From positions 1 to 61,996 of the forward strand of contig JAUIIG010000011.1 in the NCBI GenBank assembly GCA_030431875.1: a stretch of 61,996 bases of DNA, in the 5' to 3' direction. The translations under genes were made by a program, and so were the position numbers. Below the pieces are notes generated by a model that saw only the letters and a list, made by a program, of their open reading frames with translations, did not search any database and was not told where the DNA came from. This document shows positions 6,528-11,057 of the stretch, in pieces; within the stretch, counting starts at the first letter, position 1, and each line of letters opens with the position of its first letter. Source of the DNA: Alphaproteobacteria bacterium. GTDB taxonomy: Bacteria; Pseudomonadota; Alphaproteobacteria; Sphingomonadales; Sphingomonadaceae.

Positions 6528-7931
6528 ATGGCGGGAAAGACGCTTTACCTGGGGCCGCGGCTTAAGAAGCTGCGCCGCGAGCTTGGCTTGACCCAGGCGA
6601 ACATGGCTGCCGACCTCGAAATCTCCGCCAGCTATATCGCCCTGATGGAGCGCAACCAGCGCCCAGTCACCGCCGAGATGCTGCTAAAGCTGGCTACGAC
6701 CTACCGCATCGACGTTGCCGATCTCGCGGACCAAGGTGCGGACGAAACTGCCGCGCGGCTGCAATCTACCCTGCGTGATCCGCTGTTTGCAGACATCGCC
6801 ATAGAGCGGCTGGATATCGAGGACATCGCCACCTCCTACCCCGGCATCGCCGAGGCCTTGTTGCGCCTCTACACGGCCTTCGGGGAGGAACAGCTGGCGC
6901 TGGCGACACGTCGTGAAAATGCCAAGGGTGGCGGGGGCGAGATTGCGGCAGATCCGGTTGCAGAGGCACGGGCGTTCCTAGCTGCGCGCCGCAACTGCTT
7001 CCCGGCGCTGGATGACAGCGCCGCTGCTGCGGCTGTCAAGGGGCTGGACAGCTTCGAGGCCATGCAGCGCCATATCGCCGACAATTTCGGGCTGGATGTG
7101 CGCGTGGCGGACGATGGCCTCATGCGGGGCGGTGTGCGTTGGCACGATTATCATCGCCGCCGGATCAATATCGCCGAGCGGCTCGATCACTCGGGGCGCC
7201 GGTTCCAGCTGGCCTTGCAGATTGCCATCCTCGAGCAGGGCGAGGCGATTGAGGGGCTGCTGGCGGAAGGTCGCTTTGCCAGTGACGGAAGCCGTTCGCT
7301 CGTGCGTCGAGCGCTGCAGGGCTATTGGGCGGCAGCCTTGGTGATGCCTTACCGCTCCTTCCGCAAGGCGGCGGAGGAGTTGCGCTATGATATTGAGGCT
7401 TTGGCTGCGCGCTTTTCCGTCAGTTTCGAACAGGCCGCGCACCGGCTGACCAACCTGCAGAAGCCGGGCGAGGAAGGGGTGCCGTTCTTCTTCCTGCGCG
7501 TGGATCGCGCCGGCAACGTGTCCAAGCGGCTCGACGGCGCAGGTTTCCCGCTGGCGCAGCACGGCGGGGGGTGCCCACTGTGGAACGTCCACCAGGTTTT
7601 TGCCGCGCCCGGCCGTGTCGACGCGCAATTGATCGAAATGCCCGATGGCGAACGTTATGTCTCGATTGCCCGCGTGGTGCAGGCAGGGGGCGGAAGCTTC
7701 GGCACGCAGAGTGTCCCGCGCGCCATTGCACTTGCTTGCGCTGCCGATCACTTGGATCGACTGGTCTATGGCGAAGCCCTGGAGCAGGCCGATCCGACGC
7801 CAATCGGGGTCGCCTGCCGCCTCTGCCACCGCCCGCGCTGCATTGCCCGTTCCGCCCCGCCGCTAGGCCGCGAGCTGGTGCCCGTGCGTTTCCGCGACAG
7901 CGGCGTCCCGTTCGATTTTTCTGCCGACTAG
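6528..7931 (+). CDS. ScfR/RamB/PrpR-type XRE regulator of acetate or fatty-acid metabolism
   Basis: DNA-binding regulator of 467 aa. Residues about 10-65 are an XRE helix-turn-helix (LKKLRRELGLTQANMA, then SASYIALMERNQRPVT). A middle IrrE/ImmA-like region follows, but its HExxH metal motif is absent (FQLALQIAILEQ). The C-terminal DUF2083-type domain contains GGGCPLWNVHQVF and a Cys cluster, CRLCHRPRC, with Cys at 430, 433 and 438. In mycobacterial PrpR a similar C-terminal region binds CoA and a 4Fe-4S cluster, so this protein probably senses an acyl-CoA. It is divergent from aceA with a palindromic array between them, so the likely targets are aceA-glcB and itself. Activator versus repressor cannot be told from sequence. 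Confidence 0.85.
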   Translation: MAGKTLYLGPRLKKLRRELGLTQANMAADLEISASYIALMERNQRPVTAEMLLKLATTYRIDVADLADQGADETAARLQSTLRDPLFADIAIERLDIEDIATSYPGIAEALLRLYTAFGEEQLALATRRENAKGGGGEIAADPVAEARAFLAARRNCFPALDDSAAAAAVKGLDSFEAMQRHIADNFGLDVRVADDGLMRGGVRWHDYHRRRINIAERLDHSGRRFQLALQIAILEQGEAIEGLLAEGRFASDGSRSLVRRALQGYWAAALVMPYRSFRKAAEELRYDIEALAARFSVSFEQAAHRLTNLQKPGEEGVPFFFLRVDRAGNVSKRLDGAGFPLAQHGGGCPLWNVHQVFAAPGRVDAQLIEMPDGERYVSIARVVQAGGGSFGTQSVPRAIALACAADHLDRLVYGEALEQADPTPIGVACRLCHRPRCIARSAPPLGRELVPVRFRDSGVPFDFSAD

Positions 7932-8012: not shown

Positions 8013-8765
8013 ATGTCAGGTGAATTGAGAGACAATCGTGGTCGCGGCGATGCCGAATGGGGGTTTCCCGCGATCCACCCTGAAGGCCGCAAATACGGCG
8101 TGATCGCCGGGCTTGTCGCCCTGCTGGTGATGTTCGGTTTCGACTGGGAAGTCATCGGCGCCCTGCTGCTTGTGCTGACGGCTGGTGTCTTCGCCTTCTT
8201 CCGTGATCCTGAACGCGTGGTGCCGCAGGGTGACCGACTGATCGTATCGCCTGCTGACGGGCTGGTGTCGCTGATCACCCAGGTCCCGCCGCCGCTAGAG
8301 TTGCAGCATCCTGCCGAAGACGGCGGGCGTGGCTTGGGCTCGGCGCCGCTGACACGCATTTCCATCTTCATGTCGGTGTTCGACGTGCACATCAATCGCT
8401 CGCCCATTGCGGGCACGATCAAGCGCCTTGTCTATATCCCCGGACGGTTCATGAACGCCGATCTGGACAAGGCGAGCGAAGAAAACGAGCGCCAACACAT
8501 CCTGGTGGAGCGGGCTGATGGCACCTCCATCGGCTTTACGCAGATTGCTGGCCTGATCGCGCGCCGGATCATCCCGCTGGCCAAGCCTGGCGACATTGTC
8601 GCTGCCGGACAGCGCGTGGGTCTGATCCGCTTTGGCAGCCGCGTCGACATCTACCTGCCTGCCGGGACTGACGCCAAAGTGCTGCTTGGCCAGCGGGTGA
8701 TCGCGGGCGAGACGGTGCTGGCAGAGATCGGCACGGGCGGCCTGCTGGAGGGGGTCAGCCAGTGA
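8013..8765 (+). CDS. psd: Phosphatidylserine decarboxylase proenzyme
   Basis: Membrane-associated, pyruvoyl-dependent enzyme that converts phosphatidylserine to phosphatidylethanolamine. The 250-aa proenzyme is of the short type common in alphaproteobacteria. One or two hydrophobic segments lie at residues about 28-62, followed by FFRDPER. The self-cleavage motif is RFGSRVD near residues 206-212, so cleavage between Gly208 and Ser209 would create the pyruvoyl group on the small alpha chain. Two conserved histidine-bearing stretches, DVHINRSP and NERQHI, are present. TAGGTAA lies about eight bases before the ATG. The stop overlaps the pssA GTG (GTGA), so substrate-making and substrate-using enzymes are coupled. 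Confidence 0.94.
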
Positions 8766-9706
8766 GCGCGGGTTCCGACTACGACGACGATGAGACGGCA
8801 ACGCCGGGTCCGGCGTGGCTTGGTCCGAAAGCCAGCGAGCACGAGGTTGTCACCCGGTCGCGGGCAGGCAAAGGCCTGTCGATGCGCGCGCTGGTACCCA
8901 ATGCCATCACTGCTGCCGCCCTGTGCTCCGGCCTGACGAGCATCCTGTTCGCCATTGCCGGGCAGTGGGACAAGGCGGTCTTCGCCATGATCTTTGCCGG
9001 TGTGCTGGATGGCATGGATGGTCGCATCGCCCGCCTGCTGAAGGCCCAGTCGCGTTTCGGGGCGGAACTCGACAGCCTCGCCGATTCCGCCAGCTTCGGC
9101 ATGGCGCCTGCGCTGGTGTTGTACCTGTGGTCGCTCGTGGAGGTGCCGCGCTTCGGCTGGCTGGCTGCGCTGGCATATGCCATTTGTTGCGCGCTGCGCC
9201 TCGCACGTTTCAACGCCCAGATCGACGTTGACGACCAGCCACACAAGCTGGCCGGGTTCCTTACCGGCGTTCCTGCCCCGATGGGAGCGGGCTTTGCCTT
9301 CATGCCGATGTACCTTTGGCTGGCGACCGACGCGGAGGTGTTCCGCGAACCCTGGCTGGTTGGCCCATGGCTGGTGTTCGTCGCACTGCTGATGGTGTCG
9401 AACCTTGCCACGCCCAGCTGGAAGTCGCTGCGCCCGTCACCCAGCCTGAAGCTGTTTGTCCTCGTGCTGGCAGGCCTGATGGTGGGCGGCCTGCTGATCG
9501 AAACCTGGTGGACGCTGGTGCTGATCGGGGTGGTCTATTCCGCGCTGATCGTCTGGACCCTGTTCCGCTACGCTGCGGTCAAACGCGGTCATCGCGAGGC
9601 GAAGGTACCGGACGAAAAGCCCGAAAGTGTCACGCCGCCAGAAGGGCGAAAGCCTCTCGCGGTTGACGAGGTTGAACAGCAACTGGCGCAGGATCGCGAT
9701 CCATAG
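8762..9706 (+). CDS. pssA: CDP-diacylglycerol--serine O-phosphatidyltransferase
   Basis: Integral membrane enzyme that makes phosphatidylserine from CDP-diacylglycerol and serine, feeding the adjacent Psd. The CDP-alcohol phosphotransferase signature is complete: Asp83, Asp86-Gly87, Ala90-Arg91, Gly100, Asp104 and Asp108. About seven hydrophobic helices follow an acidic cytosolic N-terminus (DYDDDE). A charged hydrophilic tail of about 45 residues follows the last helix. At 314 aa it is somewhat longer than the roughly 250-290 aa common in the family, owing to both tails. The start is a GTG overlapping the psd stop. The last 77 bases of the gene are overlapped on the other strand by a 66-aa ORF. 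Confidence 0.93.
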
Positions 9707-9830
9707 CGGCCAGCTCAGCGCGGATCATGCGCCAGCGGACCAGCCCCTGGAACACCGATTCAAGGCACGACGCCAGCGACAGCGCGGCGATCAATCCGAA
9801 GAACAGCGAAATTGCGACTGCCAGTGCCAT
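9630..9830 (-). CDS. 66-aa single-span membrane protein, probably SOS-controlled
   Basis: No named family is recognised. The product has one hydrophobic helix at residues about 3-24, with a single Cys at its end. A basic, amphipathic stretch follows (GLVRWRMIRAEL), then a Pro-rich tail ([12 protein letters not shown]) ending in a short hydrophobic patch. I chose the ATG at 9830, which has an AGGGAA about eight bases upstream; an earlier in-frame start at 9905 would run through the regulatory sites. Three GTTC-N7-GTTC boxes lie 32-98 bases upstream, which points to LexA control. In Caulobacter, SOS induction makes small membrane proteins (SidA, DidA) that block division, and this gene may have a comparable role. 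Its 3' end overlaps convergent pssA. Confidence 0.7.
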   Translation of the reverse strand: MALAVAISLFFGLIAALSLASCLESVFQGLVRWRMIRAELAAMDRDPAPVAVQPRQPREAFALLAA

Positions 9831-9861
9831 TGAGTGATTCCCTGTGCGATTGCGTTGATTC

Positions 9862-9876
9862 GTTCTTGTTGCGTTC
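9862..9876. promoter_or_regulatory. LexA (SOS) box A, GTTC-N7-GTTC
   Basis: GTTC at 9862-9865 and 9873-9876 are separated by exactly seven bases, the alphaproteobacterial LexA motif (GAAC-N7-GAAC on the other strand). It lies 32 bases upstream of the 66-aa ORF, near the expected transcription start of the leftward promoter. Confidence 0.7.
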
Positions 9877-9879
9877 CAT

Positions 9880-9894
9880 GTTCCACTTTCGTTC
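9880..9894. promoter_or_regulatory. LexA (SOS) box B, GTTC-N7-GTTC
   Basis: GTTC at 9880-9883 and 9891-9894 are separated by exactly seven bases. The box lies just downstream of the TTGACC -35-like element for leftward transcription, so a bound repressor would cover the promoter. It starts 18 bases from box A. Confidence 0.7.
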
Positions 9895-9899
9895 CAGCG

Positions 9900-9905
9900 G
9901 GTCAA
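9900..9905 (-). promoter_or_regulatory. Putative -35 element for the 66-aa ORF
   Basis: On the minus strand this reads TTGACC, a near-consensus sigma-70 -35 hexamer, sitting between LexA boxes B and C. The matching -10 region at about 9877-9883 is poor (AACATG), so the promoter call rests mainly on the -35 and on the placement of the boxes. Confidence 0.4.
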
Positions 9906-9913
9906 GAACTTTT

Positions 9914-9928
9914 GTTCTCACGATGTTC
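9914..9928. promoter_or_regulatory. LexA (SOS) box C, GTTC-N7-GTTC
   Basis: GTTC at 9914-9917 and 9925-9928 are separated by exactly seven bases. It is upstream of the TTGACC element for the leftward gene and about 200 bases from the rpsB start. The first GTTC also pairs with GAAC at 9906-9909 to form GAAC-TTTT-GTTC. Confidence 0.65.
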
Positions 9929-10126
9929 TCATGTGGTGAATTGGGGCTGGATTTCCCCGTACCACTCGGCTAGTGGCGCGACCGCCTGAAGGGCTGGAGC
10001 GATTCCCGTTCCTGCCGAAGAGGGCAAATCCACATGGAAGGCACTGACATACCGGTGCTGCCCGCGCGTTTCGGCGCAAGGGTCGGTTCCCCGTCTTCCA
10101 GAGGCTTAACCGGAAAGGAATTACCT

Positions 10127-10897
10127 ATGGCGGGTCCCACCGTCACCATGCAGCAATTGATCGAGGCCGGCGCACACTTCGGCCACCAGACCCACCGCTG
10201 GAACCCGCGGATGAAGCCGTATATCTTCGGCGACCGCAACGGCGTTCACATCATCGACCTGTCGCAGACCGTGCCGCTGTTCGCACGCGCGCTGGACTTC
10301 ATCTCGTCGACCACCCGCGCCGGCGGCAAGGTGCTGTTCGTCGGCACCAAGCGCCAGGCGCAGGAACCGATTGCTCAGGCTGCCCGTTCGTGCGGCCAGC
10401 ACTTCGTCAACCACCGCTGGCTGGGCGGCATGCTCACCAATTGGAAGACGATCTCGCAGTCGATCAAGGAACTGAAGACTCTCGAGGAAAAGCTGTCGGG
10501 TGATACCCACGGCCTGACCAAGAAGGAAATCCTCCAGCTGACCCGCAAGAAGGACAAGCTGGAACTGTCGCTCGGCGGTATCCGTGACATGGGCGGCGTT
10601 CCCGACGTGATGTTCGTGATCGACGCCAACAAGGAGGACCTCGCGATCAAGGAAGCCAACGTGCTTGGTATTCCGGTTGTCGCGGTTCTTGATACCAACG
10701 TCGATCCGTCGGGCATCGCTTTCCCGGTTCCGGGCAACGACGACGCCAGCCGCGCTGTGCGTCTTTACTGCGACGCTGTTGCTGCCGCTGCAAGCGCCGG
10801 CAAGGGCGAAGGCGTGGTGGACTCGGGTGCCGACATCGGCGCCATGGACGCTCCGCCCGCAGAAGCAGTTGCCGAGGAAGCTCCGGCCGAGGCCTGA
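10127..10897 (+). CDS. rpsB: 30S ribosomal protein S2
   Basis: Structural protein of the small ribosomal subunit, needed for S1 docking and translation initiation. The 256-aa product has the S2 hallmarks [14 protein letters not shown] near the N-terminus, [22 protein letters not shown] and [13 protein letters not shown]. The C-terminus ends in an acidic Ala/Glu-rich tail ([12 protein letters not shown]), common in alphaproteobacterial S2. I placed the start at the ATG after AAAGGAA because the protein then begins [11 protein letters not shown]; an upstream in-frame extension of 31 residues does not look like S2. A long untranslated leader of about 200 bases separates it from the LexA boxes. 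tsf follows in the conserved rpsB-tsf order. Confidence 0.97.
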
Positions 10898-10909
10898 TCT
10901 TCATCCGAT

Positions 10910-10940
10910 GCGCGGCCTGCGAACGCTTCGTAAGCCGCGC
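10910..10940 (+). other. Hairpin between rpsB and tsf
   Basis: GCGCGGC (10910-10916) pairs with GCCGCGC (10934-10940), and inside this CGAA and TTCG pair around a CGC loop. No U-run follows, so it is more likely a processing or partial attenuation structure than a full terminator. It lies in the 160-base rpsB-tsf spacer. Confidence 0.45.
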
Positions 10941-11057
10941 GTCACAATTGCACGACATGGCGCCACCGATCACGGCCATCGCTGGCCGCGATAGCCCGCA
11001 ATGATAATTTCACCGGGGCAATCCGGTGCCACATTTGAAGCATCGAAGGAATTAGAC

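Follow-up and report, generated by a model that had tools for sequence, protein, structure and literature searches.

LexA-type operators precede a small predicted membrane protein, a candidate SOS division inhibitor, between rpsB and pssA in sphingomonads

We find that three very probable LexA operators stand before a small gene encoding a predicted single-span membrane protein, between the divergent rpsB and the convergent pssA. Sequence comparison strongly supports the presence of LexA-type operators before a genuine small membrane protein. On balance, we favour a LexA-repressed, short-lived membrane protein that pauses cell division; the regulatory part of this reading is well supported, while the division arrest and the proteolysis are inferred. 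The preliminary description of this locus was right and understated the case, as the pattern reaches across the family. The genus is Aurantiacibacter and the family is Sphingomonadaceae in the GTDB sense, which takes in Aurantiacibacter and Erythrobacter; family and class names beyond the record titles follow GTDB.

The window, the whole stretch of 61,996 bases that was analysed, carries the following features at the locus.

9914-9928, plus strand: putative LexA box 1, exact, reading GAAC-N7-GAAC toward the gene, upstream of the -35 element
9900-9905, minus strand: -35 element TTGACC, between the boxes at 9914-9928 and 9880-9894
9880-9894, plus strand: putative LexA box 2, exact, in the spacer between -35 and -10; the invariant box
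9862-9876, plus strand: putative LexA box 3, exact, downstream, near the expected transcription start
9839-9843, minus strand: Shine-Dalgarno-like AGGGA, 5′ of the 66-aa ORF
9630-9830 including the stop, minus strand: gene of the 66-aa small membrane protein (MALAVAISLFF...EAFALLAA), from ORF and translation
9633-9656, minus strand: codons for the last eight residues, EAFALLAA, which resemble the end of the genome's own tmRNA tag, ANDNEALALAA
8762-9706, plus strand: pssA (CDP-alcohol phosphatidyltransferase, phosphatidylserine synthase), convergent neighbour of the small gene
10127-10897, plus strand: rpsB (ribosomal protein S2), divergent neighbour of the small gene

The names pssA and rpsB are putative assignments from sequence motifs and, for pssA, from the traits of its family. 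The coding part of the small gene spans 9633-9830 on the minus strand, with the stop codon at 9630-9632. The 3′ end of pssA overlaps it by 77 bp on the opposite strand, and this overlap is conserved outside the genus. The gene at 6528-7931 (+), upstream of a psd-like ORF (8013-8765) and of pssA, encodes an XRE-type regulator that combines an M78 peptidase domain like that of IrrE with a C-terminal ScfR domain.

Read toward the small gene, the promoter runs box, TTGACC, box, box, and the second half-site of box 2 covers the expected -10 position. The three exact boxes within 67 bases were borne out in coordinates and letters, as was their placement around the -35 element, which reads 9905-9900 on the minus strand between boxes 1 and 2. 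They are the only exact matches to GTTC-N7-GTTC on either strand of the window. The preliminary description had also argued from chance, and this argument stood in part. Shuffling the window 100 times with dinucleotides preserved, we expect 1.49 matches, and at least three were found in 16 of the 100 shuffles; the box count alone was hence set aside as evidence. The clustering held: when 400 windows were simulated with a first-order Markov model, three boxes never fell within 70 bp on one strand, and a pair within 70 bp was seen three times. As a count of three per window is not rare, only the clustering and the conservation carry weight.

A single box match means little alone, because the motif is about as common in the genome as its reversed control (71 exact matches against 68) and is not enriched. 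The genome encodes a LexA that scores above the NCBI cut-off (TIGR00498); a box lies 49 bp ahead of where this match begins, and the box was present at all 30 lexA loci fetched from the genus. Reading 49 of the 71 loci and scanning 19 proteins beside boxes at 18 loci, we found a box followed by recA, uvrA, mmcB, rmuC and an ATPase with the domains of RadA; the other scanned proteins matched other families or none. The uvrA box follows TTGAC with an N6 geometry identical to that of the small gene. Because the motif also precedes the genome's own lexA, recA and uvrA, the three boxes are very probably LexA operators. Six loci (L002, L008, L304, L306, L308 and L030) amount to a draft of the SOS regulon here, with boxes before mmcB, recA, the RadA-like gene, rmuC and uvrA. 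A box also stands before an unnamed 118-aa ORF (L008:1125-1481), which lies near a second, weak LexA/S24-like match.

With the single sequence as query, 32 of the 39 remaining genus genomes yielded the protein and none of 59 outside the genus did, a tally of 33 of 99 once our own genome is counted; a profile search added G007, one of the seven genus genomes that had been missed. The protein is encoded on contigs named Aurantiacibacter and Erythrobacter and on one from an uncultured Sphingomonadaceae (13 loci). For the promoter we used 30 loci of 34 match rows, our own included. Absence of boxes and ORF from close relatives, which would have spoken against the preliminary description, was looked for and is not what we saw: TTGAC-N6-GAAC-N7-GAAC lies within 200 bp upstream of the gene at 30 of 30 loci. 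Within the same 200 bp, 20 loci have two exact boxes, nine have three and one has four. What stays invariant is thus the box six bases after TTGAC, and not the number of three boxes. A box upstream of the -35, like box 1, is found at many genus loci, and the downstream box 3 at some only; outside the genus, one box is usual by our reading of the loci. The proposal that three operators mean very tight repression of a toxic product finds no support as a general rule, given the 20 of 30 genus loci with two. The rpsB and pssA sequence patterns matched at the expected places in 26 and 21 of the 30 loci, respectively, and neither matched in one locus. Comparing the first 42 codons of 24 genus loci (six of the 30 were excluded for shifted or divergent starts), we find pS above pN in all 276 pairs, and dN/dS of 0.08-0.25 in the 15 closest pairs. 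Since synonymous differences exceed nonsynonymous ones in every pair, the small ORF is very probably a translated gene.

Performing the profile search on the family, we obtained matches in 42 of 298 genomes at E<=0.01. When 29 of these loci were read, 21 had a box and lay beside rpsB or pssA (six of the 21 in the genus); the other eight (L108, L109, L112-L114 and L116-L118), with long open frames or no neighbours, were taken as chance matches and dropped. We also read the region upstream of rpsB directly, which is a test independent of similarity. The family set comprised 70 loci, namely the best 30 of 119 by RpsB similarity and 40 hand-picked from lower down, many of the latter from genomes with no match to the strict promoter pattern. 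The outgroup comprised 20 loci of the same order but of sister families, and 39 loci of other orders, L150 being excluded as a member of the family. A box within about 600 bp of rpsB was found at 58 of 70 family loci, 0 of 20 in sister families and 1 of 39 in other orders. A small ORF (45-120 aa, helix at the start) was found at 62 of 70, 2 of 20 and 2 of 39, and both together at 57 of 70, 0 of 20 and 0 of 39, respectively. For the pair, family against outside (0 of 59) gives a Fisher p of about 4e-24, uncorrected for kinship. Twelve of the 70 family loci are without an exact box and eight without the ORF. The ORF was present at 29 of the 30 loci with the most similar RpsB (L190-219) and less often, at 33 of 40, among the hand-picked ones (L220-259). 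Of 199 family genomes, 118 contain the strict TTGAC-N6-GAAC-N7-GAAC, partly at other genes such as uvrA, and 16 contain its reversed control. The sequences are barely alike across the family, yet locus, promoter, size and orientation persist. Together with the motif at lexA, recA and uvrA and the promoter element at every genus locus, this family-wide pairing of box and ORF upholds the claim of LexA operators. The locus L255, from a 2.1-Mb genome (G101), has 38% G+C against 63% in the window; TTGAC, two exact boxes and a 74-aa transmembrane ORF lie there at rpsB. The sole box among the 39 rpsB regions of other orders (L177) has no small membrane ORF in the search range. A possible synteny with Caulobacter sidA, which might lie near rpsB, is unsupported, as the 39 regions show no box with ORF.

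The leftward 66-aa single-span ORF was confirmed, and the purifying selection on it supports a real gene. Hydropathy peaks at 2.46 over residues 1-19. AlphaFold gives a helix over residues 2-45, a loose linker and a short helix over 57-65 (mean pLDDT 85.4, pTM 0.48), with a mean pLDDT of 95-98 over residues 1-40. The small gene is thus predicted to encode a bitopic membrane protein under LexA-type operators. Collecting 75 distinct ORFs, we find little shared but the plan, a hydrophobic N-terminal helix followed by an Arg/Pro-rich stretch. The transmembrane helix is present by construction, since the selection of ORFs demands a hydrophobic start; control ORFs came from the same selection on other regions. 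Three picks (L243, L247 and L259) are probably wrong ORFs and were kept in the counts. Summed over the 75 proteins, just five Lys/Arg precede the helix, against 280 in the 25 residues that follow, and by the positive-inside rule the tail is predicted to be cytoplasmic; the net positive charge after the helix is not above that before it in 22 of the 75. A charged stretch, RxIRAEL, is conserved in the genus proteins. Searching with the small protein, we obtained only below-cut-off matches in Pfam and NCBIfam, no match in PADLOC at E<=0.1, none among PDB sequences at E<=1, and one weak match in PHROGs (E 0.042, one homologue only). Among the titles and abstract openings listed from open PMC text, none dealt with this gene or with an SOS inhibitor of division in sphingomonads.

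One genome of the genus (G019) has a second copy, 61 aa long and 45% identical to its own chromosomal copy (L323:3358-3543 (-), G019:C3). It sits in a prophage-like control region with AlpA, a GapR-like protein, a LexA-type HTH protein, Ogr/Delta, YdaS and a divergent CI-like repressor; its start overlaps the end of the LexA-type HTH gene, near the GapR-like gene. The 8 kb read around it contain no exact LexA box. A 98% identical copy of this paralogue is present in a 40.9-kb IMG/VR viral contig (L325:3001-3183); the 50,697 phage records searched have none, and no copy turned up when viral contigs were scanned with a profile. The prophage copy ends in -WRLQR, without -AA, and -AA is also absent from the four related chromosomal copies (L039, L046, L048 and L050). 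Phages often carry inhibitors of host division. A phage copy beside a CI/Cro-like switch agrees with the division-inhibitor reading without proving it.

The end of the small protein recurs. Among the 75 distinct ORFs, 63 end in -AA and 47 in -AAA, and at the 70 family rpsB loci 55 of the 62 ORFs end in -AA; none of four control ORFs has this end, nor has any of the 45 window ORFs that reach 150 aa and do not overlap. Only 16 of 30 genus proteins carry -AA at the end, though the last residue is A, V, S, G, T or I in all 30, and [ED]A[FL] lies within the last 15 residues in 20 of 30. ClpX recognises -LAA ends. At 61 of the 75 loci, mostly outside the genus, the ORF stops antisense to an identical set of PssA positions; outside the genus it mostly ends antisense to the basic tail of PssA, in a nearly fixed register. 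The conserved letters at the 3′ end of the small gene are those of antisense pssA. A terminator hairpin as the cause of this conserved end was discarded, as folding 100 nt of RNA around the stop gave none in common by eye.

In the mechanism that we propose, LexA would bind the box between -35 and -10 (here the flanking boxes as well) and shut the promoter. DNA damage would lead to LexA cleavage and switch the small gene on. Judging from hydropathy and charge, the product would be a bitopic inner-membrane protein with its N-terminal helix in the membrane and its Arg-rich tail in the cytoplasm. Most likely, the protein would pause division by binding the septal wall-synthesis complex through this helix, FtsW being the likeliest partner by analogy. 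The C-terminus, -LAA or -AAA like the genome's own SsrA tag, would probably hand the protein to ClpXP or a similar cytoplasmic protease, and the division block would lift by proteolysis once transcription stops. More tentatively, at a little below even confidence, we propose that this is an undescribed SOS checkpoint gene of the whole family between rpsB and pssA, evolving fast while promoter, orientation and an SsrA-mimicking, antisense-encoded C-terminus are kept. It would be an inside-out counterpart of YneA and SosA, with the membrane helix on the divisome and the self-destruct tag in the cytoplasm, and a temperate phage would have captured it to stop host division. Homology searches would lose so fast-evolving a protein between genera.

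The late-division block is suggested by analogy with SidA, YneA, SosA and ChiZ, which are small damage-induced membrane proteins acting on late division (PMC13396833). YneA binds TM7 of FtsW through its transmembrane helix, and SidA, SosA and ChiZ are also modelled at FtsW, not with high confidence (PMC13396833). SidA is a 29-aa SOS-induced inner-membrane inhibitor of Caulobacter crescentus that acts on FtsW (PMC4211646). The small protein is like it in coming from an alphaproteobacterium with the LexA box GTTCN7GTTC and in being a small membrane protein (PMC4211646, PMC12700426). It is set apart from SidA as described by a length of 66-98 aa as a rule, by a long Arg-rich tail with a -LAA/-AAA end and by its rpsB-pssA locus, box and ORF being found together at rpsB in 0 of 39 genomes from other orders, which do not necessarily include Caulobacter. 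DidA of Caulobacter (71 aa) resembles it in size, in the single transmembrane helix, in induction by damage and in overlapping an ORF annotated in a sister strain, and differs in being induced by DriD independently of SOS (PMC4211646). SosA of Staphylococcus aureus and YneA of Bacillus subtilis share SOS induction, one transmembrane helix near the N-terminus and removal by proteolysis (PMC6851548, PMC13396833). Relatives of SosA are 25-60% identical and occupy the same chromosomal place, much as the small gene does here, and removal of SosA through its C-terminus by CtpA has been proposed (PMC6851548). The C-terminal parts of SosA and YneA are extracellular, whereas the tail of the small protein is predicted to be cytoplasmic; the proteases are CtpA and DdcP for YneA and CtpA, as proposed, for SosA. 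YneA also has a LysM domain, and Pfam finds none in the small protein. SulA of E. coli is alike in causing an SOS-induced division block that is removed by proteolysis (PMC13396833), and differs as an inhibitor of FtsZ. Searching 37 genus genomes and 24 from sister families for its domain, PF03846, we detected it in none of the 61 but did detect it in the E. coli control, and the domain was not among the Pfam matches of the small protein at E<=1; we count this vacancy in favour of the division-inhibitor reading. Against that reading, the small protein appears to have no detected sequence link to known division inhibitors. It seems to differ from the small SOS membrane inhibitors in its predicted topology, SsrA-like end and antisense overlap with pssA.

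An alternative, which we consider unlikely, is an SOS-induced membrane-active peptide of the TisB/DinQ kind, which would lower membrane potential and growth (dormancy) and would not act on the divisome. TisB is shorter than the small protein here. TisB and DinQ are SOS-regulated small membrane peptides, and DinQ of E. coli is a single-span peptide that shares LexA-type operators, small size and a single hydrophobic helix with the small gene; the paper on it has a section whose heading says that filamentation is not affected (PMC3567139), so SOS control with one transmembrane helix does not prove a division inhibitor. Peptides of this kind act by membrane depolarisation and are kept in check by antisense RNAs, dinQ being likened to tisB-istR (PMC3567139); no known RNA family was found at our locus (Rfam, window 8400-11000, 0 matches). 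The length of 66-98 aa as a rule, the genus-conserved charged stretch and the selected-looking C-terminus also count against it, because a pore peptide would not need the latter two. We give slightly less credence to an SOS-induced modulator of another membrane process, such as envelope synthesis, PssA and phospholipid supply, or the machinery of DNA uptake or recombination. At almost every locus read, the gene adjoins pssA and overlaps it in part on the other strand, and the divergence is too great to name a partner from sequence; however, the two genes are convergent and not an operon, neighbourhood alone is weak evidence, and the prophage copy has other neighbours. That another regulator than LexA recognises the repeats, or that they arose by chance, is barely credible: the near-equal genome counts of the motif and its reverse would allow it, but position, spacing and neighbours are kept across the family and the identical motif stands at lexA, recA and uvrA.

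Two further alternatives concern the overlap with pssA. The -AAA end could be a by-product of pssA coding (V/I-K/R-R/Q-Q/R-R read antisense) and not a degron, because the ORF mostly ends antisense to the basic tail of PssA outside the genus; this account touches the tail only and is compatible with the best explanation of the rest. The nearly fixed register there, the conservation of the basic tail and the kinship of the genomes speak for it. Using the 61 of 75 loci that were usable, and with statistics that ignore kinship, we find that Arg codons ending in G make up 91 of 98 (61 CGG, 30 AGG) at the pssA sites antisense to AAA*, compared with 170 of 505 in the upstream remainder of these genes, and that the otherwise infrequent AGG makes up 30 of 98 against 17 of 505. 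Ala requires a G|C codon boundary, which 165 of 183 sites keep, compared with 1393 of 9089, while the residues vary (R/Q/L). Moreover, 24 of the 30 genus ORFs, that of the window included, stop 19-70 bases earlier on pssA, and 14 of the 24 still end in -AA. As the genomes are related, the codon test argues against the by-product without settling it, and we regard this account of the tail as doubtful. The codon bias of pssA suggests that selection acts on the C-terminus of the small protein, and the selected tail would most simply be a degradation tag; the antisense overlap, in turn, seems to constrain codon choice in pssA. Such AGG and CGG Arg codons stand in pssA just opposite the end of the small gene, for the most part at loci outside the genus (e.g. 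L193, L200 and L233). It is very improbable that the conserved thing is the antisense transcript, with SOS transcription into the 3′ end of pssA lowering phosphatidylserine synthase and the ORF being incidental. The shared antisense end at 61 of 75 loci would fit, but purifying selection acts on the first 42 codons, mostly outside pssA, the starts are conserved behind purine-rich sequences, and the prophage copy has no adjoining pssA.

To our knowledge, the SOS division inhibitors that do not belong to the SulA group came to light singly and have little or no sequence in common. The locus between rpsB and pssA is a family-wide candidate for such an inhibitor in sphingomonads and erythrobacters, SulA not having been found in the 37 genus genomes searched. 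The combination of a LexA box, a fixed neighbour and a small transmembrane ORF offers a homology-free route to such genes. If the tail is a degron, the gene would encode a checkpoint protein with its own off-switch, which constrains the codons of an overlapping lipid-synthesis gene.
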